Shown here one piece after another: positions 7,289 to 55,514 of a DNA stretch of 64,000 nt. The position numbers and the translations under genes were made by a program. This DNA is from Ceratobasidium sp. AG-K. Lineage: Eukaryota > Basidiomycota > Agaricomycetes > Cantharellales > Ceratobasidiaceae. Below the pieces are notes generated by a model. The model saw nothing but the letters and a program-made list of their open reading frames with translations, did no database searches and was not told the origin of the DNA. Position 1 is the first letter of the stretch; each line of letters begins with the position of its first letter. The stretch is from positions 372,001-436,000 of the forward strand of contig JAWNGF010000014.1 of NCBI GenBank assembly GCA_037039685.1, in the 5' to 3' direction.

Positions 7289-9720
7289 CTATTTGATAAA
7301 CGCAGACGATTGAGAAATAAAAAGCATGATGGCCGAAAGGCCCTCAGCTTTGCCAAATAAGGCGTTGAAGGATAAAAACGAGGAGGCCTTGTGTAGGATC
7401 CTACGCTCGTTGTCGTGGCGTGGGCAATCAATTAAGATGTGCCGTACCGTTTGCACCCCCACCTCGCCACAAGGGCAGCCGGTGTCCTCCGAGGGTACAA
7501 ATCGTTGGTAGTACTCGCCAAAGAACCCATGACCAAGAATAGCCTGAGCAAATCGGGTGAGAGCCAAGCGGGGAGCTTTGGCTATGGATGGGGCGTGGAA
7601 CGAGGGGTGGAGCTTCCAGGTGGGAGATCGAGGGAGTGTGTGGAGTACGTGATCGGAACGCCGCGAGGCATTCCAGGACCGGGTCCAATCCCTGACCGCC
7701 TGAGTCTTAGAGCGAGCCCGAGCCCAGGTTATGGTGTGGTGGAAGAAGGGGGTAGGAGGCGTAAGTCCGCCCTGTTCAGCTAAAGTGTCGGCGCGTTCGT
7801 TACCAGCGATGCCAGTATGACCGGGGACCCAGAGGATCTCGACCGAAGCATTAGGATGACGAGTGAGAAAATCATCGATCGCCTTGCGGAAGACAATCGA
7901 GGTGCTTTGACATGAGTGGCGGGATAGATCAGCGATGGTTTGGACGGCAGCGATATTGTCAACGCAGAACACGAGCTTGGGAGGGGCAGGAACAGAAGCA
8001 ATGGCGTTAGCCGAGAATGCAGCTGACGCAAGTGCCCACATCTCCGCGTCATAGACTTCAGCCTTGCGACCTAAGCCTAGACATTTGGCCTTGATCTCAT
8101 GACCGAACCGGTTAATGGAGTACCCGGATCCGACGCGACTGATACCGCGGACGACTTGCTTGGACCCATCTGAGTAGCAGACTAGAGAACCGTCGGAATC
8201 GGCTGACCCAATGCGTTTCAGCTGCTCTGAGACGAAAGCCTTGCGTTCTTCCTTGGTGGAGTTAAGCTTGGGTATGTGCACAGAGAGTCGGTCGCCCCAG
8301 GGATGTGGTGCGTCCCAGGGTGCAACGAGGTATGGAATAATATGCTTGGCGTCAGGGTGCGACATACCAGCGAGTCGGTGGATGATGGTGGGTTGGGTAA
8401 GGTTCAGTCGTTGAGGGTGAGGAACCTCCGGGTTGTGAGTGTCCCATGATTCAGGCAAGCGTTGGGCAAGTTGGGATGCAGGTGGGAGTGTGCGGAGACG
8501 GTTTGCAACATTCTTGGAAAGACGACGCAATGCAAGGGGGATGGGTAGGATGGAGGTGAGATGCTCCATGGCAGGGATCGGGGACGTCCTGAAAGCACCA
8601 AGTAACCAGCGGAGGCCGACATTTTGGGCTTTGATGAGTGGTTTGTATAGATAAGTTTGACGTGTTCCAGTGTACGAAAGAGGTGATCCGTATGTAAGGA
8701 CAGGCATTACACAGGTTTTGTAAAGAAGGCGGGCGTGGGCAGTGGAAATGCCACGAACACAATTGGCAAGTATCCGAAGGCTAGCAATCACTGAGAGGCC
8801 CTTGGTAGCCATCTTCTTCACGTGATCTCGGAAGTCAAGACGGCGATCTAGAAAGAACCCAAGCCAGCGCATGGAGGACAGTGCACGTACAACGTGGGTA
8901 GCTCCATTGGGTTGATCTAGGGTGACGTCAGGGTTGGAAGACATGGCCATCTTGTTTTTGGCAAAATGCACCAGCTCAGACTTGGGAAGTTTGAAAGAAA
9001 GACCAAGACGAGAAAGAACATCAGAGACAGAAGAGACAGCATCACGGAGAGTTTCACAGTTATCATGGAAAGAATGGGAATAAGTGAGTATGGAGAAGTC
9101 GTCAATGTATGCTTTGGTAACAGTATTGTTGAAATCGTTGAGAGCCAGAAGAACCGGGAGAGTGTAAATAGAGCTGAGGATGGGAGAAAGAGGAGAGCCT
9201 TGAGGTACGCCAACAGGAGAGAGATTGATGGGATCACAGAGATGAGAATCAATACGGAAGCACACAGAACGGTCAGAAAGATACAAAGCAAGCCAGTCGC
9301 AAATACAATTAGAGAAGCCCAGAGTACGGAGAGTAATGATGAGACGTTGATGGTTAATATTGTTAAAATAGCCAGAAATATCAAGAGTGAGCAAAGAAGG
9401 GTTTTTGTTGTTTTTCCAAGCAGATTGAATGTCGTGGACAAGAGAGAGTCCAGCATCTACACAAGACGACGAGTCACGTCCGCCAAATTGAGTGAACGGG
9501 ACTAAGTTGAACTTGCCAACTTCAAACGACAGCCGGTTTGTAATAACTTTTTCCAAGCACTTACTGAGACACTCCAGTAATGCGATAGGGCGGTAGGATT
9601 TTGGATTGGACATGTCGGCCCTCCTAGGTTTGGGAATGACTGAAATGACGGCTTTGCGGAGGCATAAAGGATGGAAGCCAAGGTTGAGACAGCCATTGTA
9701 TAGGTCCATGAGGAGGAGCG
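7289..9720 (-). pseudogene. LINE ORF2, C-terminal segment: reverse transcriptase and RNase H
   Basis: This is the last 809 codons of LINE ORF2, open to the stop at 7289. RT motifs include [31 protein letters not shown] and the catalytic AYIDDFSIL. An RNase H domain follows with the acidic residues in [25 protein letters not shown] and [11 protein letters not shown], then a terminal Cys/His cluster CPCGEV...HILIDCPRH. The segment starts at the GAGCG duplication of chromovirus A (9716-9720) and continues the frame of 16647-17029. It would copy LINE RNA at a nicked target; this copy cannot be made as one protein. Confidence 0.92.
9716..9720. repeat. 5-bp target duplication of chromovirus A (left copy)
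   Basis: GAGCG flanks element A here and again at 16647-16651. It matches the 5-bp duplication typical of Ty3/gypsy integrases. Confidence 0.93.
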
Positions 9721-10126
9721 TGTCCCGACTTGGGTCAATTAGGTATATAAAAGGTTAAGGGGTTCGACTTAGACAAGTCTTTGAACCCAAGGAATGGTGA
9801 TGAGTAAGAGGATTTAATTGGGCAAGTCCTAGTGGAGAGGAGGTCAAGCCTTGTCGTTAACCAGCTTGACCTCTGGGTTTATATACATGAGGGATCAGTG
9901 CCACGTCATCATCTATCAGTGTGGGAAAGCCAAGTACAACCGAGATAAGAGACGTGACTCGACATTCTGGAAGTTCCGGAAGCATCACCAATATCAAATG
10001 AAAAGACAAATACATCACATGATACAAGTTTAAGCGCCAGAGGACATTTGTACCAAAAAAGGAAAGTGTTCGGAAAAAAAGATATAAAATCGGAATAAAA
10101 TGTCTGAGCTTAGTCAGCTCATGACA
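9721..10126 (-). repeat. 3' LTR of chromovirus A
   Basis: 406 bp starting TGTCC and ending GACA on the plus strand; I see no difference from 16241-16646. In sense direction it carries TATATAAA, the self-primer, and a 10-bp inverted repeat GAGGTCAAGC/GCTTGACCTC around the expected transcription start. A 60-codon open frame inside it (9851-10033) is chance. Confidence 0.95.
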
Positions 10127-10136
10127 TTACCCCCTC

Positions 10137-13100
10137 CTAAGGGCCTGGCGCGGTGGGGTGGAGTTTGTGAAATTTATCCACCAGTTCAGGAGCGTTCTTG
10201 AGATCTTCCTTTGACTGCCAAGAGTTGTCTGCATGAGAGTATCCTTTCCACTTAACGTAATAGTGGAGTTGACGGCGGATTTTCTTGGAATTGAGGATTT
10301 CTTCGACTTCCCATTCTTCCTCTCCCTCTTGTGTGACAATAGGGGGTGGTTGAGCGGGTTCGCGGCCGTGGGGATCAGAGTGGAATTTCTTGAGCAGCAT
10401 GACGTGGAAGACAGGATGAACTTTCATTGATTTTGGTAATTCCAGTCTAAAGGCATGAGTTCCTACTTTTTCTATTACTTTGTAAGGGCCTAAAACTTTG
10501 TGGGAGAGTTTTACTGAGGGTCTGTCTGTGGAAATGTTCTGATGATTAAGCCAGACTTTATCCCCCGGGTTTATCTCTTCTGGTTCTTTGGCTCCTTTAT
10601 CAAAGTAGTATTTATAGGACTGATTTGCTAGGATAAGGGCAGCTTTGACTTCGTCGTATCCTTTCAACAGGAATTCCGCATGGGCATCAGCTTCAGGAAC
10701 AGTATAGTCTGATTCTTCCCCAATGTTCATTCTAGGGTTGAAACCCTGGCAGATTTGGAAAGGGGTTTTGCCAGTGGATGCTTGGATTCCATTGTTGTAA
10801 GCAAATTCTGCCATAGGGAGTAAGGCTACCCAGTTGTTTTGCCTATGGTTGACAAAAGCCCTGATAAAGATTTCAACGACTTGGTTTGCTTGTTCTGACT
10901 GTCCGTCTGTTCTTGGATGGTAGGCTGTGCTGAAGGTCGGTTTTACGTCCAACCGTTTGTACAGATGCCTGATGAACTTTGAGTTGAAAGTGGATCCTCT
11001 ATCCAAGACTGTTGCTTTTGGGGTGCCGTGAAGTTTCCAAATGTTTGCAATGAAGATGTTGCCTATGTCTACTGCTGTGGCCATTGATTTGCAAGGGATA
11101 TAGTGTGCCATCTTGGAGAACCGATCTACCACTGTCAAGATTGCGTCATATCCTTCTGATTCTGGGAGCCCTACAATCATGTCATAGGAGATCTCTTCCC
11201 AGGGTCTCTCAGGAATATGTAAAGGACGCAGTAGTCCTGTGGGGAGTTGGTTCGATGGTTTAATTCGAATGCATGTTTCGCAGTGTGACACATAAGAATT
11301 GACAAATTTCTTCATGGTTGGCCAGTAATAAGTTCTTGAGACTAATTCTAATGTTCTTGCTTGTCCAGGATGCCCAGCTGTAATGTTGTCATGGCGCGAT
11401 TCCAATATCAGGTTTCTGATGGTTTCATCCTTGGGGACAAAGATCTTCCCTTTGAACATTAGGAGTCCTTCTCTGTATTCCCAATCTTTGACTTTTTCTC
11501 CATTTCTCAGCTTATTGTGGGCTTCTTCTAATCTGGAATCTTCAAGGATTGCTTGTCTGATTAGGTCGTTGATTTCCTGGTCAGGGGTAATAGCCGAAAT
11601 AAAAATGTCTGGTTTGAGGAGAACTTGGTTCTCTACCCCCCCAAAGGTTCTAGGTCGTATCGCCTTGAGAGAATGTCTGCTTTTTTATTTTGGCTTCCTG
11701 GCCTGTATAAGATTTGGAAGTTGAAGTCTACCAAGAAATTCATCCAGCGGATTTGGCGTTGATTCAATTGTTTGGATGATGAGAAGTATTCCAAATTTTT
11801 GTGATCTGTCATCACTTGAATGGCTTTTTCTGTGCCTTGAAGTAAGTGCCGCCATTCTTTGAAAGCTCTAATTATTGCCAATAGTTCTTTGTTGAAAATG
11901 TCATAGTTTCGCTCAGCTGGATTTAGTGATTTAGAAAGAAAAGCTACAGGGTGTAATTTCCCTTCTTCATCTTTCTGAGATAAAACTGCTCCTGTGGCGA
12001 ATCCCGACGCATCTGTCTTGAGGAAAAATTCCTTATTCTGATCGGGCTGCATCATTACAGGTGCCACTTTAAGAGCTTCTTTTAGTGCAGTCATGGCCTC
12101 TTGTTCTTTGCTTGTCCACTGCCACTTTTGATCCTTCTTAAGTAGGTTGTACAGAGGTCTGGCTTTGCCGGCAAAGTCTTGAATGAATCTTCGATAGAAA
12201 TTGACAAATCCTAGGAATTCTTGAACTTGTTTGACGTTTTTGGGAGCCTTCCAATTCATAGCCGCCGTGACCTTTTCCTGATCCGTTTCGATTCCTTTAT
12301 TGGAAATTACCAATCCTACCCAGTCCAGTTTGGTCTGGTGGAACTTGCATTTCCTCAATTTCGCAATCAGCTTGTGTTCCCTTAGTCTTCTTAGCACCTC
12401 TTTCATGTGTCCTGGATGATCTTTGACTCGTTTGGAAAAAACAAAGATATCATCAATGTATACGAGTACGAAAACCCCCATAATGTCCCTGAATATAGAG
12501 TTCATTAGGGACTGGAAGCTTGATGGAGCGTTTTTGAGACCGAAGGGCATGACTTTCCATTTGTACATGCCGTATTGAGTTTTGAATGCTGTTTTCCATT
12601 TGTGGCCTGCTGCTATTTGGGTTTGATGGAATCCTTGTGCCAAGTCTAGAGTGGTGCCAATGACAAATCCTTCCAGGGCCCTTAACCATTGATCCAATAG
12701 AGGTATTCCACTTGCATTGAATTTGCATAGCGAATTCACATATCTGTAATCAACGCAAAAGCGTAATTCTGGGTTGTTTGGATCTTCTGGATGTGGTTTT
12801 TTGACAAACAAAACCGGGGAAGCCAAAGGAGACTTAGAAATCTGAATGTGTCCCCTTCGGATAAGGGTTTCTAGTACCTTCTTCATTTCTTTGTCTTCAG
12901 CTGGGGATGTTTTATAAATAGGGCCATGCTTTAGTTTAGCTTCTGGTAGGAGGTCGAGCGTAATGTCAGTTGGCCTGTGAGGTGGGAGTTCCTCTAATCT
13001 GGACTCGTCGAACACATCTGCAAACTCTTTGTATTCCTCTGGTAATGTAGTTTCTGCTGCGATTTGGAGTGTAGATGGGACTTCTAGGCAGTTTTTTGAG

Positions 13101-13534
13101 CAGAATTCGCTTGTGTATGCAATTGTCCTATTTTTCCAATTAATTTGTGGGTTATGTTTCTTGAGCCATGACATCCCGAGTACGATAGGGTGTCTTCCAA
13201 TGTTTGTAACATGACATTCTATTTCGCTGGAATGTGTTCCCATGACAAGTTTGAATTTGGTATAGTGGGTGACTTTTCCAGACGAGACTTCTCGTCCGTC
13301 TATAACTCGCAGAGTCTTGGGTTTTTTGTGTTGGAAAAGGGGAAGGTTTGCCTCTTTTGCTAGAGAAGGGTTGATGAAACAGGAGGTTGCGCCGCAGTCA
13401 AGAAGTGCTTGTCCAGAGAATTTTTTTGATCTGTTAACTGACTTAAAACCAGGAGCCGTAGCTAGTGGGTGAGCGGTGAAATCAAGGTATAATTGGTTTT
13501 CATTTGATATTGACATGATTTCTAGTTCATCCAT
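10137..13534 (-). pseudogene. Pol polyprotein of chromovirus A (frameshifted)
   Basis: Sense order: retropepsin-like ALLDCGATSCFI, RT with VLVYIDDIFVFS, RNase H beginning TDASGFATGAVLS, an HHCC zinc domain, integrase with acidic residues in VVDRFSK, DRGSTF and TDGQSE, and a C-terminal chromodomain (WEVEEIL...YYVKWKGY). Homologous element B reads this as one 1,132-residue frame. In A the sense G-run at the RNase H/integrase linker (plus strand 11636-11642) has seven G instead of eight. This gives an immediate TAG, and integrase (10137-about 11632) falls into another frame. It is otherwise about 97% like B at the protein level by eye. Translation would need the upstream -1 frameshift from Gag. 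Confidence 0.93.
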
Positions 13535-13569
13535 ATTGCTAGCTAATATGTCACCGAGTACTTGGCTCC

Positions 13570-14922
13570 TTAATAAGCCTCGGTGACGTCTTTTCCCGAT
13601 TCGATGTCTGAAGAGATTTCTTCAATCTGGGCTTCAAATCCTGACGCTGTGTTCTTGGAAGGACAGACTCTTGCTGAGTGTCCCTTACCGCCGCAGGTGA
13701 AGCAGATCATTGGTCCTTTTCCTTTTCCATCAAGATCCATCGCATTAGGGTCTTTAGCAGGAGTGGATGGTTTGGGTGTTTGGATGGTAGGAGCGTTGAG
13801 GTTACTGGTTCGGGTGTCTCTTTGAATTGCTCCAAAAGGGACATTTCCTTTTGTCCCATCATCCCAGGAGATCTGTGGAACTGGACGGCCCTTGGCGTTT
13901 CGGGTAATGCTTGAGATTTTGCCGTATTGCACCCCCCCTGTAGGTTTTGACATAAAGACTCGATCGTTTACATTGAATCTTTGACCTAGCGAGGCGTTTT
14001 GAGTACTTGTGGTTGTCTTTGAAGTACTTTGTTTTGAAGTGGTGGTTTGTGAGCTTTGCAACTTCTTGGGTGCGTTAATAGCGTTCATTGTGGAGTCAAT
14101 TTCCAGGGCTCTTTCGCGAACTTGGTTGAATGTCCTTGTCACTTCGTGGGGTTTAAAGTTCTGTGACACCATGGCCATCTTGATTTCATCCTTAAGACCG
14201 TCATAGAAATCGTCACGAAGTACTTGATCAGTGTACCCGAGTACCGATGAATAAGTGACAAAGTCTCGTAGATAATCTTGGACAGAGTTCTTCTGGATCA
14301 ATTTCTTGTATAATTGTCTATATCGGTCGATCTTGTGAACATCGCCAAACCTAGCTTGCATTTCGTTCCAGAATTCATCCATGTCGTGTAGCCAATTTGT
14401 TGCTCCCCTTCTTGCTGTGTCTACATCAATTCCAGGTTGCATCCATACATAGGCAGGCCCCTTGCAATAACCCATGATATAAGTGATTTTTTGTTCTGTG
14501 GTTGCTTGTGGCAACGTGTGATTTATGTACAAGGTACATTGCGACTTAAACTCGTCAAATTTATCTACATCTCCAGAAAATTCTTCTGGGGGATGCATTT
14601 TGAGTTTGTATCCTGGGGTGGTTGTTGACGCGGTGGTGGAGGGTGTTGCCCCTAGGTTTGCAAGTGACTGAGACACTGCATTCATTAATTGGTGAAGGGG
14701 TGCAATTTGTGCAGTTTGATTTTGAATTGCGTGAATATCTGCAATGTTATTGTCGATCCCCTGTTCTAGGGTAGAGGTGATACCATTTAAGGCATTAATA
14801 TGACCGTTAATTTTTCGCACTTTGTCTATTAAGGCATTGATTGCATGTGCAACTACCTCGGGTCCGGATGTTGCTGAGATTTGGGTAAATCCCCCTTGAC
14901 TAGGTGATGGGGCTCTTGACAT
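13570..14922 (-). CDS. Gag protein of chromovirus A
   Basis: 450 codons from the ATG at 14922 (MSRAPSPSQGG) to TAA. A helical capsid-like core of the Ty3 retrotransposon Gag type (YKLKMHPPEEFSGDVDKF...) is followed by a linker, an SH3-like stretch (RFNVNDRVFM) and one CCHC zinc knuckle (CFTCGGKGHSARVCPS) near the C-terminus for RNA packaging. This is the first AUG of the predicted transcript. The heptamer GGGAAAA lies seven codons before the stop. Confidence 0.9.
   Translation of the reverse strand: MSRAPSPSQGGFTQISATSGPEVVAHAINALIDKVRKINGHINALNGITSTLEQGIDNNIADIHAIQNQTAQIAPLHQLMNAVSQSLANLGATPSTTASTTTPGYKLKMHPPEEFSGDVDKFDEFKSQCTLYINHTLPQATTEQKITYIMGYCKGPAYVWMQPGIDVDTARRGATNWLHDMDEFWNEMQARFGDVHKIDRYRQLYKKLIQKNSVQDYLRDFVTYSSVLGYTDQVLRDDFYDGLKDEIKMAMVSQNFKPHEVTRTFNQVRERALEIDSTMNAINAPKKLQSSQTTTSKQSTSKTTTSTQNASLGQRFNVNDRVFMSKPTGGVQYGKISSITRNAKGRPVPQISWDDGTKGNVPFGAIQRDTRTSNLNAPTIQTPKPSTPAKDPNAMDLDGKGKGPMICFTCGGKGHSARVCPSKNTASGFEAQIEEISSDIESGKDVTEAY
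13591..13597 (-). promoter_or_regulatory. -1 programmed ribosomal frameshift heptamer, chromovirus A
   Basis: Sense GGGAAAA is read TC[G GGA AAA] in the gag frame, the X XXY YYZ phase for simultaneous slippage. Pol is in the -1 frame and is open from this point through the gag stop. A perfect 9-bp stem, GTCACCGAG/CTCGGTGAC (plus strand 13579-13587 and 13550-13558), starts 3 nt downstream, with an inner GGCT/AGCC pairing. Elements B and C have the same heptamer in the same phase. Confidence 0.8.
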
Positions 14923-14947
14923 ATCGGAGCGGGGAAAACAGGTAGAT

Positions 14948-15199
14948 TTATTGGGATCCCAGACCGTACAAAATATCACGGATTCTTCTTCGAACCCGTC
15001 TGTCTTTAATGATGCGCAAACTTCTCAAAAATATCAATTCAAGATTTTCGTCTTCCAAGAACAACGCGTTGATTACTCCTAGTTCGTCGTACTGTTCGTA
15101 TATGTAGTTACGATGAACGTCTTCAATAAAGAGTTTTAGGGACTCTAGTCTAAGTTGTTCCCTGTGTTGTTCCTGTGTGAGTCGAGGTCTTGGTCCCAC
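14948..15199 (-). CDS. AUG-less ORF b (about 83 codons) upstream of gag, chromovirus A
   Basis: An open frame rich in Leu, Arg and Glu (RLTQEQHREQLRLESLKLF...) lies between ORF a and gag and ends 25 nt before the gag AUG. It overlaps the end of ORF a by 55 nt and lies in its -1 frame. It has no methionine codon, and no AUG exists upstream in the predicted transcript. Element B keeps the same frame with three amino-acid changes in 83. A CCCTTTT sequence in C CCT TTT phase just before the overlap could allow -1 slippage from ORF a, but B has TCCTTTT there. I recognise no family. Confidence 0.5.
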   Translation of the reverse strand: MGPRPRLTQEQHREQLRLESLKLFIEDVHRNYIYEQYDELGVINALFLEDENLELIFLRSLRIIKDRRVRRRIRDILYGLGSQ

Positions 15200-15759
15200 T
15201 GAAAAGGGTTGGGTGCGATGGTATTAAGGTGATTTAGAAGGCGGTAATCCTGATTAATAGGAATACGCACTTCTGCTGCTTGATGACAGTATTTGCCCTT
15301 GATTTTATCTTTAAGGGTTTTGATAGTGCGCCACTGTCGCTTATTGTTGCTGATGAGACTTTCGACCTTTCGAGTGTGTTTTTCTTGGATTTTTATAAGT
15401 TGGTCGCAGTTTTCGATCAAGACACGGGTTTGTTCTTGCAATCGCTCGACTTCAATATTAGTGTCCGCTAGATTTATACTTTGGACACGATCTTGATCGG
15501 CTTGTTGCTTGTTTGTATTGTCAAGGTCAATTTCAATGAACTCAAGCCTTGAATGGAGGGATTGATAATCGGCTTCCAGTTGATTGTGGTTTTCGTCGTT
15601 TCTGGTACGTTCGACCCTTAAATCCTCTGCTTGTTCAACTTGATCTTCTTCTAGCACTTCAATTCGACTGTTTAATTCGTCGACTTTGGTGTCTAGATCA
15701 AGTACGAAGTCCTTTAGTCTAAAGACTGCTTTGCAGAGGCTAAAAAATGCGGGGAACAC
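15145..15759 (-). CDS. AUG-less ORF a (about 204 codons), coiled-coil-like, chromovirus A
   Basis: The frame runs from just after an in-frame TAA to a stop at 15145; the first near-cognate codon is GTG at 15759. The product would be charged and heptad-rich (LDTKVDELNSRIEVLEEDQ, LEADYQSLHSRLEFI), suggesting a coiled coil, with a basic C-terminal third. It contains no methionine. Element B has the same frame; I count about 50 nucleotide but only about 14 amino-acid differences, which points to selection on the protein. If translated, it must start at a non-AUG codon. Unknown function, possibly a Gag-associated structural protein. Confidence 0.55.
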   Translation of the reverse strand: MFPAFFSLCKAVFRLKDFVLDLDTKVDELNSRIEVLEEDQVEQAEDLRVERTRNDENHNQLEADYQSLHSRLEFIEIDLDNTNKQQADQDRVQSINLADTNIEVERLQEQTRVLIENCDQLIKIQEKHTRKVESLISNNKRQWRTIKTLKDKIKGKYCHQAAEVRIPINQDYRLLNHLNTIAPNPFQWDQDLDSHRNNTGNNLD

Positions 15760-16240
15760 TTTTAAGGTTAATTAGTTAGTTACTAATTAGTTTCTTTTTA
15801 GTGCGTACTGATGGAAACGACAAGTTGATGTGGTTCTTGATGGATGAGAGTGTTAACTTGGGTGGTGCTCCGACCACTTTCCAGTTTTGCTTGAGAGGAT
15901 CTGGCTTCCTCGAGATGTTGATTTGGATGTGAAGGGTGCTAGACGCTAAGCTTTTGCTTTATATACTCCTTATCTGATCTTATCAGTTATCAACAGCCTT
16001 GGGCGGGCGTGATAGCGACAGTGTATAACAGAGTAAGGGTGTATTTAGCTGACTAAAGCCGCTATGACCCGAAAGAGGATAACGATTGGGTTCACTGACA
16101 GTGTATAGTGACGTGGAACTCCTGGTCTATATCAAGTATAGCTCTTCGTTCGTTGTACTATGCCCGTTTTCCCGTGTACGTTCTATCTAATTGATGGAAG
16201 AGCAGGGGCTTATGGCCGATGCTTAGAAGGCTTGACCTAA
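15760..16240 (-). other. Leader of chromovirus A between 5' LTR and ORF a
   Basis: About 480 bp with no ATG in sense. Just before ORF a the sense strand reads CTAACTAATTAACC then AAAAG, which resembles a branch site and 3' splice site, so an intron ending at 15760 is possible; I cannot assign the donor. The primer-binding site lies at the LTR-proximal end. Confidence 0.5.
16227..16238 (-). promoter_or_regulatory. Self-priming primer-binding site, chromovirus A
   Basis: Sense AGGTCAAGCCTT starts 2 nt inside the 5' LTR. It is the exact complement of AAGGCTTGACCT in the same LTR (plus strand 16371-16382). That LTR segment begins 33 nt downstream of the start of TATATAAA (16408-16415), where transcription should start. 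This is the geometry of Tf1-type self-priming, in which the RNA 5' end folds back as the primer. I did not recognise a tRNA 3' end at this site. Confidence 0.85.
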
Positions 16241-16646
16241 TGTCCCGACTTGGGTCAATTAGGTATATAAAAGGTTAAGGGGTTCGACTTAGACAAGTCT
16301 TTGAACCCAAGGAATGGTGATGAGTAAGAGGATTTAATTGGGCAAGTCCTAGTGGAGAGGAGGTCAAGCCTTGTCGTTAACCAGCTTGACCTCTGGGTTT
16401 ATATACATGAGGGATCAGTGCCACGTCATCATCTATCAGTGTGGGAAAGCCAAGTACAACCGAGATAAGAGACGTGACTCGACATTCTGGAAGTTCCGGA
16501 AGCATCACCAATATCAAATGAAAAGACAAATACATCACATGATACAAGTTTAAGCGCCAGAGGACATTTGTACCAAAAAAGGAAAGTGTTCGGAAAAAAA
16601 GATATAAAATCGGAATAAAATGTCTGAGCTTAGTCAGCTCATGACA
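16241..16646 (-). repeat. 5' LTR of chromovirus A
   Basis: 406 bp that I read as identical to 9721-10126. In sense it contains the TATA box (16408-16415), the self-primer (16371-16382) and the inverted repeat around the start site. The GAGCG duplication follows at 16647. Confidence 0.95.
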
Positions 16647-17029
16647 GAGCGGGTGAGTGGCAAATACCCATTTGAGAAGTCGGAAGTTGGATCCAAAGGC
16701 CCCTGGTGCAGATGTATTGGACGAGGTGTCCAGGGCTTTTTTGATCTCGTGATGCGTGATTATGTGATGGGCCCTGGTGGGCCTGGATCAAATACCGAAA
16801 TCATCTTCAAGATCAACAGGGGGTATTTGCGTGGGGAAGAAGGCGGTGCAGAATGCGTTGGCTTGGTCGTCTGGGGTGATAGCCATACCGTCGGGTTTGG
16901 AGATGGGAGGCATACGAGACAAGCGTTTGCCAGAAGCCCAAGACGTAATTTTGTAAAGGTTGGTGAGGTGAACAATTTCACTGCAGATTTTGTCAGCGTG
17001 TTTGCGCTTGGCAGAGCGAATGGCTTGGC
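16647..17029 (-). pseudogene. LINE ORF2, middle segment between the two LTR elements
   Basis: These 383 bases contain the LINE stretch linking the endonuclease to RT, bounded by the GAGCG duplication of A (16647-16651) and the TTGGC duplication of B (17025-17029). The frame joins 23984-25045 and 7289-9720 in register. It contains one in-frame TGA (codon after DDFGI), consistent with CGA to TGA. Confidence 0.9.
17025..17029. repeat. 5-bp target duplication of chromovirus B (left copy)
   Basis: TTGGC here and at 23984-23988 flank element B exactly at its LTR ends. Confidence 0.93.
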
Positions 17030-17449
17030 TGTCCCGACTTGGGTCAATTAGGTATATGTAAAGGTAAAGGGGTTTGACTTAGACGAGTCTTAGAACCCAA
17101 GGAGTAGTGATAAGTGAAAAGGGTTTTTGATTTGGCAAGTCCTAGTGGAGAGGAGGTCAAGCCTTGTCGTTTAACCGGCTTGACCTCTGGGTTTATATAC
17201 ATGTGAGATCAAGGCCACGTCATCATTTATCAGTGTGGGAAAGCCGAGTACAACCGATGATAAGCGAGATAAGAGGTATGACTCGACATTCTGGAAGTTC
17301 TGGAAGTATCACTAATATCAAATGAAAAGACAAATACATCACATGATACAAGTTAGGCGCCAGAGGACAATTGTACCAAAAAAGGAAAGTGTTCGGAAAA
17401 AAAGATATAAAATCAGAATAAAATGTCTGAGCTTAGTCAGCTCATGACA
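17030..17449 (-). repeat. 3' LTR of chromovirus B
   Basis: 420 bp, TGTCC...GACA on the plus strand. Compared with 23564-23983 it shows TTTGAC for TTCGAC, CCGGC for CCAGC, TTCTGG for TTCCGG and TTAGG for TTAAG. Confidence 0.95.
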
Positions 17450-17459
17450 TTACCCCCTC

Positions 17460-20400
17460 CTAAGGGCCTGGCGCAGTGGGATGGAGTTTGTGAAATTTAT
17501 CAACTAGTTCAGGAGCGTTCTTGAGATCTTCCTTTGACTGCCAAGAGTTGTCTGCATGAGAGTACCCTTTCCACTTAACGTAATAGTGGAGTTGGCGACG
17601 GATTTTCTTGGAATTAAGGATCTCTTCAACCTCCCATTCTTCTTCTCCATCTTGTGTGACAATAGGGGGTGGTTGAGCAGGTTCGCGGCCATGGGGATCA
17701 GAGTGGAATTTCTTGAGCAGCATGACATGGAAGACAGGATGAACTTTCATCGATTTTGGTAACTCCAGTCTAAAGGCGTGAGTCCCTACTTTTTCCAGTA
17801 CCTTGTAAGGGTCTAAAACTTTGTGAGAGAGTTTTACTGAAGGTCTGTCTGTGGATATGTTTTGATGATTAAGCCAGACTTTATCTCCAGGGTTTATCTC
17901 TTCTGGTTCTTTGGCTCCTTTATCAAAGTAGTGTTTGTAGGACTGATTTGCTAGGATGAGGGCGGCTTTGACTTTGTCGTATCCTTTGAGCAGGAATTCC
18001 GCATGGGCATTAGCTTCAGGAACAGTATAGTCTGATTCTTCCCCGATGTTCATTCTAGGGTTAAAACCCTGGCAGATTTGGAAAGGGGTTTTGCCAGTGG
18101 ATGCTTGGATTCCATTGTTGTACGCAAATTCTGCCATAGGGAGCAGGGCCACCCAGTCGTTTTGCCTATGGTTGACAAATGCCCTGATAAAGATTTCAAC
18201 CACTTCGTTTGCCCATTCTGACTGTCCGTCTGTCCTTGGATGGTACGCTGTGCTGAAGGTAGGTTTTACGTCTAACCGTTTGTATAGATGCCTAATGAAC
18301 TTTGAGTTGAAAGTGGATCCTCTATCCGAGACTGTTGCCTTTGGAGTGCCGTGAAGTTTCCAAATGTTTGCGACAAAAATATTGGCTATGTCTACTGCTG
18401 TGGCCGTTGATTTGCAAGGGAGATAGTGTGCCATCTTGGAGAACCGATCTACTACTGTTAAGATTGCGTCATATCCTTCTGATTCTGGGAGCCCTACAAT
18501 CATGTCATAGGAGATCTCTTCCCAAGGTCTCTCAGGAATATGTAGAGGATGCAGTAATCCTGTGGGGAGTTGGTTTGATGGTTTAACTCGAATGCATGTT
18601 TCGCAGTGTGACACATAAGAGTTGACAAATTTCTTCATGGTTGGCCAGTAGTAAGTTCTGGAAACCAATTCCAATGTTCTTGCTTGTCCAGGATGCCCAG
18701 CTGTAATATTGTCATGGTGCGATTCCAATATCAGGTTTCTGACAGTTTCATCCTTAGGGACAAAGATCTTTCCTTTGAACATTAGGAGTCCTTCTCTGTA
18801 TTCCCAATCTTTGACTTTTTCTCCGTTTCTCAGCTTATTGTGGGCTTCTTCTAATCTGGGATCTTCGAGGATTGCTTCTCTGATTAGATCGTTAATTTCC
18901 TGGTCAGGGGTGATAGCCGAAATAAAAATGTCTGGTTTGAGGAGAACTTGGTTCTCTACCCCCCCCAAAGGTTCTAGGTCGTATCGCCTTGAGAGAATGT
19001 CTGCTTTTTTGTTTTGGCTTCCTGGTCTGTACAAGATTTGGAAGTTGAAGTCTACCAAGAAATTCATCCAGCGGATTTGGCTTTGATTCAATTGCTTGGA
19101 TGATGAGAAGTATTCCAAATTTTTGTGATCTGTTATCACTTGAACAGCTTTTTCTGTGCCTTGAAGTAGGTGCCGCCATTCTTTGAAAGCTCTAATTATT
19201 GCCAATAGTTCTTTGTCAAAAATGTCATAGTTTCGCTCAGCCGGATTTAGTGATTTAGAAAGAAAAGCTACAGGGTGTAGTTTCCCTTCTTCATCCTTCT
19301 GAGATAGAACTGCTCCTGTAGCAAATCCCGACGCGTCTGTTTCGAGGAAAAATTCCTTATTCTGATCGGGCTGCATCATTACAGGTGCCACTTTAAGAGC
19401 TTCTTTTAGCGCATTCATGGCCTCTTGTTCTTTGCTTGTCCACTGCCACTTTTGATCCTTCTTAAGTAGGTTGTACAGAGGTCTGGCTTTGCCGGCAAAG
19501 TCTTGAATGAATCTTCGATAGAAATTGACAAATCCTAGGAATTCTTGAACTTGTTTGACGTTTTTGGGAGCTTTCCAGTTCATAGCCGCCGTGACCTTTT
19601 CCTGATCTGTTTCGATTCCTTTATTGGAAATGACCAATCCTACCCAGTCCAGTTTGGTCTGGTGGAATTTGCATTTCCTCAATTTCGCGATCAGCTTGTG
19701 TTCCCTTAGTCTTCTTAGCACCTCTTTCACGTGTCCTGGATGATCTTCGACTCGTTTGGAAAAAACAAAGATATCATCAATGTATACGAGTACAAAAACC
19801 CCCATAATGTCCCTGAATATGGAGTTCATTAGGGACTGGAAGCTTGATGGGGCGTTTTTGAGACCAAAGGGCATGACTTTCCATTCGTACATGCCGTATT
19901 GAGTTTTGAATGCTGTTTTCCATTCATGGCCTGCTGCTATTCGGGTTTGATGGAATCCTTGTGCCAAGTCTAGAGTGGTGCCAATGACAAATCCTTCCAG
20001 GGCCCTTAACCATTGGTCCAATAGAGGTATTCCACTCGCGTTGAATTTGCATAGCGAATTCACATATCTGTAGTCAACGCAAAAGCGTAATTCTGGGTTG
20101 TTTGGATCTTCTGGATGTGGTTTTTTGACAAACAGAACCGGGGAAGCCAAAGGAGACTTAGAAATCTGAATGTGTCCCCTTCGGATCAGGGTTTCTAGTA
20201 CTTTCTTCATTTCCTTGTCTTCAGCTGGGGACGTTTTGTAGATAGGGCCGTGCTTTAGTTTAGCTTCTGGTAGGAGATCGAGCGTAATGTCCGTTGGCCT
20301 GTGAGGTGGGAGTTCTTCTAACCTGGATTTGTCGAATACATCTGCAAACTCTTTGTATTCCTCTGGTAATGTAGTTTCAGCTGCAATTTGGAGTGTAGAC

Positions 20401-20858
20401 GGGACTTCTAGGCAGTTTTCTGAGCAGAAGTTGCTTGTGTATGCAATTGTCCTATTTTTCCAATTAATTTGTGGGTTCTGTTTCTTGAGCCATGACATCC
20501 CGAGTACAATAGGGTGTCTTCCAATGTTTGTGACATGACATTCTATTTCGCTGGAATGTGTTCCCATGACAAGCCTAAATTTTGTATAGTGGGTGACTTT
20601 TCCAGACGAGACTTCTTGTCCGTCTATAACTCGCAGAGTCTTTGGTTTTTTGTGTTGAAAAAGGGGAAGGTTTGCCTCTTTTGCTAGGGAAGGGTTGATG
20701 AAACAGGAGGTTGCGCCGCAGTCAAGGAGTGCTTGTCCAGAGAATCTTTTCGATCTGTTAACTGACTTAGAATCAGGAGCCGTAGCTAGTGGATGAGCGG
20801 TGAAATCAAGGTATAATTGGTTTTCATTTGATATTGACATGATTTCTAGTTCATCCAT
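17460..20858 (-). CDS. Pol polyprotein of chromovirus B (intact)
   Basis: 1,132 residues counted from the first in-frame ATG (20858), although the natural product probably arises by -1 frameshifting from Gag. Domains in order: protease (ALLDCGATSCFI, Cys where many elements have Ser/Thr after the catalytic Asp), RT (LPPHRPTDITLD, FVDD-type motif as VLVYIDDIFVFS), RNase H (TDASGFATGAVLS; TDHKNLEYF), HHCC (HPGQARTLEL...HCETC), integrase core (acidic residues in VVDRFSKM, SDRGSTFNS, TDGQSE) and chromodomain (VEEILNSKKIRRQLHYYVKWKGY). Chromodomains direct integration to marked heterochromatin. The sense G-run broken in A is eight G here and in frame. Confidence 0.95.
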   Translation of the reverse strand: MDELEIMSISNENQLYLDFTAHPLATAPDSKSVNRSKRFSGQALLDCGATSCFINPSLAKEANLPLFQHKKPKTLRVIDGQEVSSGKVTHYTKFRLVMGTHSSEIECHVTNIGRHPIVLGMSWLKKQNPQINWKNRTIAYTSNFCSENCLEVPSTLQIAAETTLPEEYKEFADVFDKSRLEELPPHRPTDITLDLLPEAKLKHGPIYKTSPAEDKEMKKVLETLIRRGHIQISKSPLASPVLFVKKPHPEDPNNPELRFCVDYRYVNSLCKFNASGIPLLDQWLRALEGFVIGTTLDLAQGFHQTRIAAGHEWKTAFKTQYGMYEWKVMPFGLKNAPSSFQSLMNSIFRDIMGVFVLVYIDDIFVFSKRVEDHPGHVKEVLRRLREHKLIAKLRKCKFHQTKLDWVGLVISNKGIETDQEKVTAAMNWKAPKNVKQVQEFLGFVNFYRRFIQDFAGKARPLYNLLKKDQKWQWTSKEQEAMNALKEALKVAPVMMQPDQNKEFFLETDASGFATGAVLSQKDEEGKLHPVAFLSKSLNPAERNYDIFDKELLAIIRAFKEWRHLLQGTEKAVQVITDHKNLEYFSSSKQLNQSQIRWMNFLVDFNFQILYRPGSQNKKADILSRRYDLEPLGGVENQVLLKPDIFISAITPDQEINDLIREAILEDPRLEEAHNKLRNGEKVKDWEYREGLLMFKGKIFVPKDETVRNLILESHHDNITAGHPGQARTLELVSRTYYWPTMKKFVNSYVSHCETCIRVKPSNQLPTGLLHPLHIPERPWEEISYDMIVGLPESEGYDAILTVVDRFSKMAHYLPCKSTATAVDIANIFVANIWKLHGTPKATVSDRGSTFNSKFIRHLYKRLDVKPTFSTAYHPRTDGQSEWANEVVEIFIRAFVNHRQNDWVALLPMAEFAYNNGIQASTGKTPFQICQGFNPRMNIGEESDYTVPEANAHAEFLLKGYDKVKAALILANQSYKHYFDKGAKEPEEINPGDKVWLNHQNISTDRPSVKLSHKVLDPYKVLEKVGTHAFRLELPKSMKVHPVFHVMLLKKFHSDPHGREPAQPPPIVTQDGEEEWEVEEILNSKKIRRQLHYYVKWKGYSHADNSWQSKEDLKNAPELVDKFHKLHPTAPGP

Positions 20859-20893
20859 ATTACTAGCTAATATATCACTGAGTACTTGGCTCC

Positions 20894-22246
20894 TTAATAA
20901 GCCTCGGTGACGTCTTTTCCCGATTCGATGTCTGAAGAGATTTCTTCAATCTGAGCTTCAAACCCTGAGGCTGTGTTTTTAGAAGGACAGACTCTTGCTG
21001 AGTGTCCCTTGCCACCGCAGGTGAAGCAAATCATTGGTCCTTTTCCTTTCCCATCAAGATCCATTGCGTTGGGGTCTTTAGCAGGAGTGGACAATTTGGG
21101 TGTTTGAATAATTGGAGCGTTGAAGGTACTGGTTCGAGTGTCTTTTTGAATTGCTCCAAAAGGAACATTTCCTTTTGTCCCATCGTCCCAGGAGATCTGT
21201 GGTACTGGGCGGCCCTTGGCGTTTCTGGTAATGTTTGAGATTTTGCCGTATTGCACTCCCCCTGTAGGCTTTGACATAAAGACACGGTCGTTTACGTTGA
21301 ATCTTTGACCTAGTGAGGTGTTTGCAACGCTTGGGGTTGTCTTGGCAGTGGTTTGTTTGGAGGTACTGGTTTGTGGGCCTTGCGACTTCTTTGGTGCATT
21401 AATGGCATTCATTGTAGAGTCAATTTCCAGGGCTCTTTCGCGAACTTGATTGAATGTTCTTGTTGCTTCGTGGGGTTTAAAGTTCTGTGACACCATGGCC
21501 ATCTTGATTTCATCCTTAAGACCGTCATAGAAATCATCACGAAGTACTCGATCGGTGTATCCAAGTACCGATGAATAAGTGACAAAGTCTTGTAGATAAT
21601 CTTGGACAGAGTTCTTCTGGATCAACTTCTTGTATAATTGTCTATATCGGTCGATTTTGTGAACATCGCCGAACCTAGCTTGCATTTCGTTCCAGAATTC
21701 ATCCATGTCATGTAGCCAAGTTGTTGCTCCCCTCCTTGCCGTGTCCACATCAATTCCAGGTTGCATCCATACATAGGCAGGCCCCTTGCAATAGCCCATG
21801 ATATAAGTGATTTTTTGTTCTGTGGTTGCTTGTGGGGATGTGTGGTTTATGTACAGAGTACATTGCGACTTAAACTCATCGAACTTATCTACATCTCCAG
21901 AGAATTCCTCTGGGGGATGCATCTTGAGTTTGTATCCTGGGGTGGTTGTTGACGCGGTGGTAGAGGGTGTTGCACCCATGTTTGCAAGTGATTGAGATAC
22001 CGCATTCATTAATTGGTGAAGGGGTGCGACTTGTGCGGTTTGATTTTGAATTGCATGAATATCTGCAATGTTATTGTCGATTCCCAATTCTAGGGTAGAG
22101 GTGATGCCATTTAAGGCATTAATGTGACCGTTAATTTTTTGCACTTCGTCTATTAAGGCATTGATTGCCTGTGCAACTACATCGGGTCCAGATGTTGCTG
22201 AAATTTGGGTAAATCCCCCTTGACCGGGTGATGGGGCTCTCGACAT
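20894..22246 (-). CDS. Gag protein of chromovirus B
   Basis: 450 codons from the ATG at 22246 (MSRAPSPGQGG) to TAA at 20894. Same domain order as Gag of A: capsid-like core, SH3-like segment and zinc knuckle CFTCGGKGHSARVCPS. The sequence is about 94% like A, with most change in a Ser/Thr linker. Confidence 0.92.
   Translation of the reverse strand: MSRAPSPGQGGFTQISATSGPDVVAQAINALIDEVQKINGHINALNGITSTLELGIDNNIADIHAIQNQTAQVAPLHQLMNAVSQSLANMGATPSTTASTTTPGYKLKMHPPEEFSGDVDKFDEFKSQCTLYINHTSPQATTEQKITYIMGYCKGPAYVWMQPGIDVDTARRGATTWLHDMDEFWNEMQARFGDVHKIDRYRQLYKKLIQKNSVQDYLQDFVTYSSVLGYTDRVLRDDFYDGLKDEIKMAMVSQNFKPHEATRTFNQVRERALEIDSTMNAINAPKKSQGPQTSTSKQTTAKTTPSVANTSLGQRFNVNDRVFMSKPTGGVQYGKISNITRNAKGRPVPQISWDDGTKGNVPFGAIQKDTRTSTFNAPIIQTPKLSTPAKDPNAMDLDGKGKGPMICFTCGGKGHSARVCPSKNTASGFEAQIEEISSDIESGKDVTEAY
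20915..20921 (-). promoter_or_regulatory. -1 programmed ribosomal frameshift heptamer, chromovirus B
   Basis: Sense GGGAAAA in gag phase TC[G GGA AAA], as in A; the -1 frame is open through the gag stop into Pol. The downstream stem retains TCACCGAG against CTCAGTGA, with one mismatch relative to A. Confidence 0.8.
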
Positions 22247-22269
22247 ATTGGAGCGGGAAAAAGGTAGAT

Positions 22270-22521
22270 TTATTGAGATCCAAGGCCGTACAAAATGTTA
22301 CGAATTCTTCTCCAAACCCTTCTATCTTTAATAATGCGCAAACTCCTCAAAAATATCAGTTCAAGGTTTTCGTCCTCCAGAAACAACGCGTTGATTACTC
22401 CTAGTTCGTCGTACTGTTCGTATATGTAGTTACGATGAACGTCTTCAATAAAGAGTGTTAGGGACTCTAGTCTAAGCTGTTCCCTGTGTTGTTCCTGTGT
22501 GAGTCGAGGTCTTGGTCCCAC
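22270..22521 (-). CDS. AUG-less ORF b, chromovirus B
   Basis: Counterpart of 14948-15199: same length, same overlap with ORF a, no methionine. Three residues differ from A. Confidence 0.5.
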   Translation of the reverse strand: MGPRPRLTQEQHREQLRLESLTLFIEDVHRNYIYEQYDELGVINALFLEDENLELIFLRSLRIIKDRRVWRRIRNILYGLGSQ

Positions 22522-23081
22522 TGAAAAGGATTGGGTGCGATAGAATTAAGGTGATTTAGAAGGCGGTAATCCTGGTTGATAGGAATACGCACTTCTGCTG
22601 CAAGATGACAGTATTTTCCCTTGATTTTGTCTTTAAGGGTTTCGATAGTGCACCACTGTCGTTTATTGTTGTTGATGAGGGTTTCGACCTTTCGAGTGTG
22701 TTTTTCTTGGATTTTAATAAGTTGGTCGCAATTTTCGATCAACACACGGGTTTGTTCTTGTAAGCGCTCGACTTCGATATTGGTGTCAGCTAGATTTATG
22801 CTTTGGACACGATCTTGATCGGCTTGTTGTTTGTTTGTGTTGTCGAGGTTAATTTCGACGAACTCGAGCCTTGAATGAAGAGATTGATAATCGGCTTCGA
22901 GTTGATTGTAGTTTTCGTCGTTTCGGGTACGTTCAACCCTTAGATCCTCTGCTTGTTTGACTTGATCCTCTTCCAGTACTTCAATTTGACTGTTCAATTC
23001 GTCAATTTTGGTGTCTAGATCAAGTACGAAGTCCTTAAGTCTAAAGACTGCTTCACAGAGGCTAAAAAATGCGGGGAACAC
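22467..23081 (-). CDS. AUG-less ORF a, coiled-coil-like, chromovirus B
   Basis: Counterpart of 15145-15759, same length and boundaries, without methionine. The lasting openness of this frame in two diverged copies, with mainly silent or conservative change, is the main evidence that it is coding. Confidence 0.55.
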   Translation of the reverse strand: MFPAFFSLCEAVFRLKDFVLDLDTKIDELNSQIEVLEEDQVKQAEDLRVERTRNDENYNQLEADYQSLHSRLEFVEINLDNTNKQQADQDRVQSINLADTNIEVERLQEQTRVLIENCDQLIKIQEKHTRKVETLINNNKRQWCTIETLKDKIKGKYCHLAAEVRIPINQDYRLLNHLNSIAPNPFQWDQDLDSHRNNTGNSLD

Positions 23082-23563
23082 TTTTAAGGTTAATTAGTTA
23101 GTTACTAATTAGTCCTTTTTTAGTGCGTACTAGTGGAAACGACGAGGGGATGTGGTTCTTGATGGATGAGAGTGTTAACTTGGGTGGTGCTCCGACCACT
23201 TTCCAGTTTTTGCTTGAGAGGATCTGGCTTCCTCGAGAAGTTGATTTGGATGTGAAGGGTGCTAGGCGCTAAGCTTTTGCTTTATATACTCCTTTTCTGA
23301 TCTTATCAGTTATCAACAGCCTTGGGCGGGCGTGATAGCGACAGTGTATGACAGAGTGAGGGTGTATTTAGCTGACTAAAGCCGCTATGACCCAAAAGAG
23401 GATAACGATTGGGTTCACTGACAGTGTATAGCGACGTGGAACTACTGGTCTATATCAAGTATAGCTCTTCGTTCGTTGTACTATGCCCGTTTTCCCGTGT
23501 ACGTTCTATCTACTTGATGGAAGAGCAGGGGCTTATGGCCGATGCTTAGAAGGCTTGACCTAA
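23082..23563 (-). other. Leader of chromovirus B
   Basis: About 480 bp without a sense ATG, matching the leader of A. The self-priming PBS AGGTCAAGCCTT (plus strand 23550-23561) starts 2 nt from the LTR and complements LTR positions 23688-23699, which begin 34 nt after the start of TATATAAA (23726-23733). Confidence 0.7.
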
Positions 23564-23983
23564 TGTCCCGACTTGGGTCAATTAGGTATATGTAAAGGTA
23601 AAGGGGTTCGACTTAGACGAGTCTTAGAACCCAAGGAGTAGTGATAAGTGAAAAGGGTTTTTGATTTGGCAAGTCCTAGTGGAGAGGAGGTCAAGCCTTG
23701 TCGTTTAACCAGCTTGACCTCTGGGTTTATATACATGTGAGATCAAGGCCACGTCATCATTTATCAGTGTGGGAAAGCCGAGTACAACCGATGATAAGCG
23801 AGATAAGAGGTATGACTCGACATTCTGGAAGTTCCGGAAGTATCACTAATATCAAATGAAAAGACAAATACATCACATGATACAAGTTAAGCGCCAGAGG
23901 ACAATTGTACCAAAAAAGGAAAGTGTTCGGAAAAAAAGATATAAAATCAGAATAAAATGTCTGAGCTTAGTCAGCTCATGACA
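23564..23983 (-). repeat. 5' LTR of chromovirus B
   Basis: 420 bp with TATA box, self-primer and inverted repeat as in A. The TTGGC duplication follows at 23984. Confidence 0.95.
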
Positions 23984-25045
23984 TTGGCGCAGGATGGCAC
24001 GGGATTGTTCTTTGTCCTCCGGGGTGTTGGGACAGTTTTTGACGGAGTTGATTGCAAAATCGCAGTCCTCGTTCCACCAGAGAGCGCGAGCAGGGGCAGT
24101 GCCAACTTGGACCTTTTTCATGGAGCGTTCAGTGGCTTCGGACATGCTTTGGAGCAGCGAGGTTGCAGCATGTTCAAGGTCGTTATGAGTGAGGTACGAA
24201 AACGGAGCGAGTTTTTTGATAGCGCCAGCAAATTCCTGTTTCCATTCCTTTTGACGTGATGCATCAATTGGGAATCGGAAGGTAGGTTCAGGCGGTTCGA
24301 AGTGAATGTGGACGGGTGGTTGGATGACAAAGGAGATGGCGTGGTGATCCGAGTTAAGAGAGAAGCTATTGGAGCAATCCCATTCAATAATACATTCAGA
24401 ATCCGCAGCAGCGTGGCTGAGCAGAGTAAGGTCTATAATCGAATTGCGTTGGGTATGTGTACCAAGTCGAGTGGGTGTCTGATTGTTAAGGATGGTGATA
24501 TTGTTGGAAACGATCCACTCAGCAAGATCTTCTGCATGTGTATTCGATCTCGGGGCGTCAGGTAGCGACCAAAGCTCATGATGAAGGTTAAAATCACCAG
24601 CAAAGACGATGGGGATGAGGGGGTAGACGGGTTGATCAAGGAGAACCTGTAGAGAAGAAGCCATAGACGAGCCACGCAGATAAATACAAACCAGGCAGAC
24701 CAAGAACCCAGAAACCGAGACATCAATAGCAAGCACAGAAGGAGAAGACCGAACCGTAGAGGACAAAGCTGCCGACAGGTACGACCTACCTTTCCGCACA
24801 TAGATAGCCACATCGGGAGAACCAGAAGTCACAGGAGGCAAGAAACACGACCAGGCAGGACAAGCAACAGTACCTAGAATTTCGGTCTCAGCGGAGGAAG
24901 TCGAGTGCTCAACGCCAATCTTCCCCCACCAGGGATCCTGGAAAAGACAAATATCAAAGTGGAGAAGGTTGTTTAGGAGGGCGTGCATGCGAATGTTGGA
25001 CCGGGCAACGTTCAGCTGCAGTACTCTGCAAGGGCCGACACTCAT
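23984..25045 (-). pseudogene. LINE ORF2, N-terminal segment: APE-type endonuclease
   Basis: ORF2 starts at the ATG 25045-25043 (MSVGPCRVLQLNVARSNIR), overlapping the ORF1 stop as ATGA, a classic stop-restart coupling. The endonuclease has the LQLNVARSN start, an FQDPWWG segment, the catalytic AGDFNLHH motif and the NSDHHAI terminus typical of exonuclease/endonuclease/phosphatase folds. It nicks target DNA to prime reverse transcription. The frame is cut by chromovirus B at 23984 and continues at 17024. Confidence 0.92.
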
Positions 25046-37984: not shown

Positions 37985-38340
37985 CTTTGATACGATTGGC
38001 TGTTCCTGGTTCTTTAATTTCCACATATGACAAATAGAGGGCTTAAGGCTGCAGTGTTGTCGGCGCCAAGCCGGCCGGGGTCGTTGGTTGTCCTGCTGAA
38101 CGCACCGCTGTATCCACTTGCATGCTCCAGTAGACAGTCCTGCGGCTTGCCCATTCAATCTATGGCTGAGCTTTGGCATAGACGGAATGCGCACCATTAA
38201 AATTTCCGCGTAGCTTGTATCAACCTTTACAACGAGGATTTATCGGAGAATCATCGCTCAGCTCTTCGTGGGCGATGGCTACAGTCAGACTTCAGGGTTC
38301 GGGTTGTCATGGGATGTACGCATTAGACTGCCATCCAAGC
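37985..38340. repeat. Noisy direct repeat, copy 1 (left of poly-C)
   Basis: This stretch is nearly the same as 38816-39180. The two copies differ mostly by single-base insertions, deletions and substitutions scattered along their length rather than by transitions. That error pattern fits uncorrected long-read sequence better than biological divergence. No gene seen. Confidence 0.75.
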
Positions 38341-38366
38341 CTCGTAATTGAGCGGGCCGTCATGTG

Positions 38367-38805
<439 letters not shown>

Positions 38806-38815
38806 GTCCAAGCTT

Positions 38816-39180
38816 TAGATACGACTGGCTGATCCCTGGTTCATTAATTTCCCACATATGACAAATAGAGGGCTTATACGGCTGCAGTGTTGTCGTGCGC
38901 CAAGCCGGCCGGGGTCCGTTGGTTGTCCTGCTGAACGCAACCGCTGAATCCCTTGCATGCCCTCCAGTAGACTGTCCTGCGGCTTGCCCATTCAATCTAA
39001 GGCTGAGCTTTGGCATAGACGGAATGCGCAACCATTAATATTTCCGCGGTTAGCTTGTCTCAACCGTTACAACGAGGGATTTATCAGAATCATCCGCTAC
39101 AGACCTCAATCCGTGGGGCGTATGGCTACAGTTCCAGACTTCAGGGTTCGAGGGATGTCATGGATGTACGCGCTCCAGGG
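38816..39180. repeat. Noisy direct repeat, copy 2 (right of poly-C)
   Basis: Same order and orientation as 37985-38340, followed by the promoter region of the pectate lyase. If the poly-C and one copy are artefacts, this is the real single-copy upstream region. Confidence 0.75.
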
Positions 39181-53485: not shown

Positions 53486-53487
53486 TT

Positions 53488-53499
53488 ACAAAACAAGCT
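53488..53499 (+). promoter_or_regulatory. Self-priming primer-binding site, chromovirus C
   Basis: ACAAAACAAGCT starts 2 nt after the 5' LTR and is the exact complement of LTR positions 53313-53324, at the predicted RNA 5' end. Same spacing as in elements A and B although the sequence is unrelated. Confidence 0.85.
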
Positions 53500-53514
53500 T
53501 AACAACATACAAAC

Positions 53515-55512: not shown

Positions 55513-55514
55513 CT

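Follow-up and report, generated by a model that had tools for sequence, protein, structure and literature searches.

Splicing appears to choose the first gene of the mRNA in a chromodomain Ty3/gypsy element of a fungus, in which two extra genes, ORF1 and ORF2, are placed between the LTR and gag. According to the proposed model, the leader is free of AUG, so that the first AUG of each mRNA would be set by splicing. The gag AUG would come first in the unspliced RNA and in RNA spliced at a distal acceptor. Splicing at a proximal acceptor would join exon 1 (...ATCA) to TG and create the AUG of ORF1, which encodes a predicted coiled-coil protein, while removal of a second intron of 72 bases would create the AUG of ORF2. 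We consider it probable that splicing of the AUG-free leader decides in this way whether ORF1, ORF2 or gag has the first AUG. We also lean, if only slightly, toward a wider reading of the leader as a start-codon switchboard, where A|UG splicing would let a single promoter serve any of three genes in first position, possibly including an mRNA-only transcript from an internal TATA box. If true, several proteins would be obtained from one retroelement RNA without non-AUG initiation, their start codons being built by splicing, and the 1.45 kb AUG desert would be explained. Fungal Ty3/gypsy elements would also gain two unrecognised genes, of a kind missed by gene finders that require a genomic ATG.

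Element layout and the AUG-free leader

The window, a stretch of 64,000 nucleotides from Ceratobasidium sp. AG-K, is part of a 53.6-Mb genome in 17 contigs. It contains elements A and B, which are members of one chromodomain Ty3/gypsy family and lie on the minus strand. The LTRs of element A (5' LTR, 16241..16646; 3' LTR, 9721-10126) are identical at 406 of 406 positions and are flanked on both sides by CGCTC, a 5-base target duplication. Those of element B (23983-23564 and 17449-17030) agree at 416 of 420 positions, with GCCAA as the 5-base target duplication. Judged from their unaligned flanks, A and B appear to be inserted about 380 bases apart within one non-LTR retrotransposon (window 7289-25132), whose reverse transcriptase resumes at 7289-9709.

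The pol product of element B contains PR (42-126), RT (262-409), RNase H (498-604), integrase (704-874) and Chromo (1075-1124) domains. This order with a C-terminal chromodomain is that of Ty3/gypsy chromoviruses, and is shared with the fungal chromodomain elements Tf1/Tf2, MarY1 and other clades; pol also carries an SH3 domain of the Tf2-1 type. In element B pol forms a single frame of 1132 codons, and in element A it is split into two frames of 633 and 440 codons (10137-13534) despite the identical LTRs. The gag product of element A (gene at 13570..14922) matches Retrotrans_gag above the cutoff (26.3 versus 24.1 bits) and zf-CCHC just under it (20.4 versus 20.8 bits), and was scored as having both a capsid domain and a CCHC knuckle.

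A TATA box, TATATAAA (16398..16405), ends 26 bases upstream of position 16372, and six of its eight positions are invariant across 108 aligned copies, the remaining two being kept in 107. We place the predicted RNA start at 16372 on the evidence of this box and of the complementarity between the 12 bases that begin there (16361-16372) and a site just inside the LTR (16227..16238). Leader positions are given below as an index (idx), idx i being window position 16372 - i of element A. The complement is perfect in 96 of the 108 copies. In three more (L016, L019 and L107) the two sides carry corresponding substitutions, with A in place of G at idx 2 and T in place of C at idx 143, and 11 of 12 bases are paired; this compensated change is probably one event in related copies. 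By sequence, a primer-binding site complementary to the 5' end of its own RNA likens the element to Tf1, which primes itself by this mechanism.

No sense ATG was counted at 14923..16382, as the first-pass annotation had reported, compared to 24 on the opposite strand. Its expectation of about 23 was too high, since dinucleotide-preserving shuffles give 13.5 for the leader of element A (minimum 4 in 2000) and 11.5 for that of element B (minimum 3 in 2000), where ATG is absent as well. The ATG-free runs at 16408-14922 (1486 bases, A) and 23736-22246 (1490 bases, B) far exceed all others in the window; the longest of these others, on either strand, has 496 bases. An upstream AUG in U3 was rejected as a start, as the nearest one, at 16408, precedes the TATA box. 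A gypsy-like element at 53280-59381 on the plus strand has a TATA-like box, only about 200 bases to gag and an ATG at 53480, ahead of that of gag, indicating that an AUG desert is not general among the LTR elements here.

The evolution of the leader was followed in 108 copies, which remained from a set of 112 after L040, L041, L059 and L088, which do not cover the region, were dropped. The set excludes two copies equal to those of the window and one duplicate, and is a nonrandom sample from the best 150 of 268 candidates, 40 of those 150 not being included. Altogether 44 copies have no ATG in the leader, and 64 have at least one (1 in 20 copies, 2 in 28, 3 in 11, 4 in 4 and 5 in 1). Scattered ATGs of this kind had been named beforehand as evidence against the desert; they arose mainly as CpG changes on the terminal branches of the tree. 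Substitutions were assigned by parsimony to a single tree of the copies, which may have recombined, and expectations keep mutation classes and CpG; on this basis, ATG gains number 9 versus 53.2 expected on internal branches and 110 versus 186.8 on terminal branches, where 93 of the 110 are CpG transitions. The internal gain ratio of ATG over the whole leader (0.17) is the lowest among 64 triplets; its reverse complement CAT is also low (0.47). When the count is restricted to the first 564 bases, ATG ranks fifth from the bottom among 59 triplets, with 5 internal gains versus 18.7 expected (0.27). The number of ATGs climbs with terminal branch length (Spearman 0.51), as expected under decay after insertion: 16 of the 18 copies with the shortest branches have no ATG, compared to 2 of the 18 with the longest. 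Internal depletion together with this rise with age argues that the active lineage purges AUG and that dead copies regain ATG, mainly through CpG decay. The substitution record thus places the AUG desert under selection.

Two coding frames upstream of gag

The two frames are as first described: ORF1 with 204 codons (15145-15759) and ORF2 with 83 codons from its GTG (14948-15199), overlapping by 55 bases and both without a Met codon. Their counterparts in element B lie at 22467..23081 and 22270..22521. That these were conserved extra genes beyond gag-pol is borne out on internal branches, where the ratio of nonsynonymous to synonymous changes relative to expectation (N/S) is 0.22 for ORF1 and 0.42 for ORF2, compared to 0.27 for the start of gag and 0.70-5.07 in seven off-frame controls. 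On terminal branches the values are 0.49, 0.79 and 0.41, respectively. The constrained frame switches at idx 1173, where the internal-branch ratio of the ORF1 frame goes from 0.08 before to 2.39 after and that of the ORF2 frame from 9.14 to 0.15, the two values after the switch being based on 12 and 13 changes. Judging by these substitution patterns, both extra frames are protein coding.

Stops scattered through both frames had been proposed as a refuting observation. ORF1 is clean in this respect, with 0 stop gains versus 14.2 expected on internal branches (15 versus 30.5 on terminal ones). ORF2 is less so, with 2 versus 3.9 (9 versus 9.9 on terminal branches), so its case is weaker on stops. 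ORF1 is free of stops in 129 of the best 150 matches among the 268 genomic candidates and open in 91 of the 108 aligned copies, the other 17 including three that lack an intron; ORF2 is open in 86 of the 108. Indels within ORF1 are limited to three on terminal branches, which are the losses of this intron. None falls on an internal branch, compared to 86 in the 5' part of the leader, where they cluster at a few homopolymer runs. The idea that both ORFs are untranslated, and that the leader lacks AUG only to let gag be reached, would agree with the avoidance of AUG in the non-coding first 564 bases; it is already contradicted by the frame-specific N/S, the absence of internal ORF1 indels also counts against it, and we give it almost no credence.

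Structure models of modest confidence consist of two long helices for ORF1 (3-90 and 97-163; pLDDT 70.5, pTM 0.27), in line with its predicted long coiled coil, and four short helices for ORF2 (pLDDT 63.6, pTM 0.45), predicted to be a small helical protein. For ORF1, no Pfam family scored above its cutoff and no relatives were found in viral contigs; no Pfam family was listed for ORF2. A PDB search gave an unconvincing tropomyosin as the best match of ORF1 (E 0.2) and none for ORF2. Searches for remote relatives led from ORF1 to two database proteins, which a 21-row profile found again and did not add to, and from ORF2 to one; three database entries, from bacterial-style callers, are given a GTG or similar start. 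Our guess is that the two proteins may act at low dose as accessory factors, either of the particle or in the control of copy number.

Leader introns and the proposed assembly of start codons

Exon 1 of the leader (15809..16372) is AUG-free and ends in ...ATCA. In both elements, idx 564-632 match the pattern GTRNGY...CTRAY...YAG, which delimits intron 1 in its distal form (15740..15808 in A, 23062..23130 in B), 69 bases running from GTACGC to TTTTTTAG. Exactly these 69 bases are lost at three genomic places and kept at 213, while a reversed-pattern control gave no losses. Such exact losses indicate that leader RNA was spliced and then copied back, and the genomic copies in this sense record the splicing of intron 1 at its distal acceptor. 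The three intronless copies differ pairwise by 6.2-7.7%, have different nearest relatives and belong to different parts of the family. The losses look like separate events, suggesting that splicing and reverse transcription of leader RNA with a start upstream took place on more than one occasion. A splice that excludes the region would have counted against the first-pass annotation; a splice does exist, but it takes out only the ORF1 start. The earlier choice between non-AUG initiation and an untranslated leader had missed the introns, and splicing that assembles AUG would fit better.

On internal branches, 15 changes fall in the 69 bases of intron 1, compared to 346 in the 564 bases before it and 551 in the 817 bases after it. 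The final 20 bases of the intron are nonetheless coding sequence of the ORF1 frame, with 7 of 8 variant alleles and 23 of 24 change events at third positions. By codon position, variant alleles number 1, 0 and 7 at idx 613-633, compared to 8, 8 and 9 at idx 564-612 and 12, 12 and 14 at idx 523-563; neither the bases just upstream of the start nor exon 1 have a coding phase in the ORF1 frame. The onset of phase indicates that ORF1 translation begins at idx 613-614, inside the stretch removed by the distal splice. This splice, the only form found in genomic copies, thus destroys the ORF1 start. We rejected the possibility that the distal splice lengthens ORF1 at its N terminus with exon 1 sequence, because idx 523-563 lacks codon phase and a stop lies in frame upstream.

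Each GTG triplet previously taken as a start coincides with an acceptor-like AG|TG sequence, and both upstream exons end in A. The ORF1 triplet reads AAAAG|TG, its AG (idx 612-613) being the first past a branch-like CTAAC. Use of this proximal acceptor would remove 50 bases (15759..15808, GTACGC...CTAAC...AAAAG; in element B the proximal form ends at 23081 and the distal at 23062). The predicted splice of idx 564-613 would give ATCATG TTC, in frame with ORF1. A563 (window 15809) and A560 (window 15812), the latter at -3, do not vary in any of the 108 copies, whereas idx 561 and 562 between them do. The ORF2 triplet reads TTTTCAG|TG, with GAA|GTGCGT 72 bases upstream. Removal of this predicted intron 2 (15199..15270 in A, 22521..22592 in B) would join GCAGAA to TGG as AGCAGAATGG; ORF2 would then be in frame, and its AUG would be surrounded by A at -3 and G at +4. 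In all 108 copies, both predicted spliced AUGs would be in a favorable context, with A at -3. We infer that the proximal acceptor and intron 2 would be used, and that they would supply A|UG starts.

The donor of intron 2 lies within the windows of ORF1 that have the fewest synonymous changes, 0 versus 13.7 at idx 1093-1107 and 1 versus 19.7 at idx 1099-1113, a constraint of about 1e-5 when corrected for the 182 windows. The acceptor of intron 2 coincides with the switch of the constrained frame from ORF1 to ORF2. The only GTRNGY donors in leader A are those of the two introns, each after A, and leader B has a third. Against the model, A before GTG is frequent in leader A (7 of 10 GTG). In 4000 shuffles, A|GTRNGY occurred 45-110 bases upstream of both starts in 0.1%, and in none of these cases was there also A at -3; the windows were set post hoc. 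The ORF2 acceptor TTTTCAG is strong, while AAAAG of ORF1 is weak. Neither the proximal intron 1 junction, nor a loss of intron 2, nor a splice from idx 564 to 1173 was seen in any genomic copy, two 3-mismatch matches to the intron 2 pattern being due to chance. The lack of these junctions excludes little, as there are only three spliced copies and mRNA-only RNAs need leave none.

Frameshifting offers another route to ORF2, in which a -1 shift at CCCTTTT (15208-15202) would fuse it to ORF1. The canonical heptamer is present in 85 of the 108 copies and the constrained frame switches there; it was rejected for ORF2 because 15 related copies that read TCCTTTT retain the frame, with no broken ORF2 among the 15 and 20 nonsynonymous to 20 synonymous ORF2 changes. 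Frameshifting would, moreover, need no donor 60-70 bases upstream, and we regard it as very improbable.

A more serious competitor, though still rather unlikely in our judgment, is leaky scanning, with ORF1 and ORF2 starting inefficiently at GUG on unspliced RNA, most ribosomes reaching gag, and splicing of intron 1 only turning ORF1 off. Long upstream ORFs without internal AUG are present, the GTG is kept in 105 of 105 intron-bearing copies for ORF1 and in 108 of 108 for ORF2, and ORF1 has A at -3 of its GTG. Translation of intron 1 in the ORF1 frame from the GTG onward is also expected from intron retention, and the same strategy is established for ORF I of RTBV, with an AUU start and AUG-free ORFs (passages of PMC5902531). 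This explanation has to contend with a pyrimidine at -3 of the ORF2 GTG (T in 103 copies, C in 5) and with a competing upstream CUG in better context (idx 488, 107 of 108 copies); retention of the latter implies that near-cognate codons are not purged. It also leaves unexplained why the donor-like GTGCGT and its preceding bases are the most constrained synonymous sites, and why A563 and A560 are invariant amid variable neighbors. GUG initiation is possible, above all for ORF1. A mixed scheme, with ORF2 as the ORF more likely started by spliced A|UG and ORF1 by GUG on unspliced RNA, would suit the strong acceptor and weak GUG context of ORF2 and the weak acceptor and fair GUG context of ORF1, but not the invariant A563 and A560 of exon 1; it seems to us quite improbable.

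Known systems and further features of the leader

Splicing likewise separates RNA pools in plant LTR elements that have a spliced leader or gag RNA, among them the barley element BARE (Ty1/copia). In these cases it concerns gag versus gag-pol, and we know of no assembled start codons in them. An extra protein from a separate RNA form is also produced by yeast Ty1 (Ty1i / p22); Ty1i is initiated internally within gag, whereas the ORFs described here precede it. Searches of open-licence full texts turned up no LTR element reported to build its start codons by splicing.

In outline, the element resembles RTBV and the badnaviruses (Caulimoviridae), which, according to passages of PMC5902531, also have two long, consecutive and slightly overlapping AUG-free ORFs before the main polyprotein on one RNA. 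For RTBV, leaky scanning through such ORFs is described there as established, and for badnaviruses as a proposal. In RTBV, ORF I starts from AUU and ORF II from AUG by leaky scanning, behind a structured leader with ribosome shunt; its leader is also spliced, which gives P4 its start (same passages). In contrast, the start-like GTGs of the present element sit on acceptor sites, and splicing appears to assemble its AUGs. No sequence kinship of the upstream ORFs with Caulimoviridae was found in viral contigs for ORF1 or in Pfam for both. For fungal elements, passages of a survey (PMC2864245) report one or two ORFs in most full-length elements and mention an additional ORF of unknown function in a figure legend; they describe no AUG-free leader with two coding ORFs for chromodomain Ty3/gypsy elements.

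Further conserved features occur within the leader. A second TATATAAA is located at 15958-15965, in a block (idx 401-426) that is nearly invariant among the 108 copies except at idx 411 (T in 95, A in 11, C in 2). It is a candidate internal promoter, from which the RNA would lack the primer-binding site. The conserved stretch before intron 1 (15838-15887) is predicted to form a small hairpin, GTGGT/ACCAC, and includes a CTG in the context AAACTGG that is kept in 107 of 108 copies; it is possibly a packaging signal or a short CUG-started frame. Elsewhere in the window, a long low-complexity stretch at 38320-39031 reads as poly-Pro or poly-Gly in several frames.
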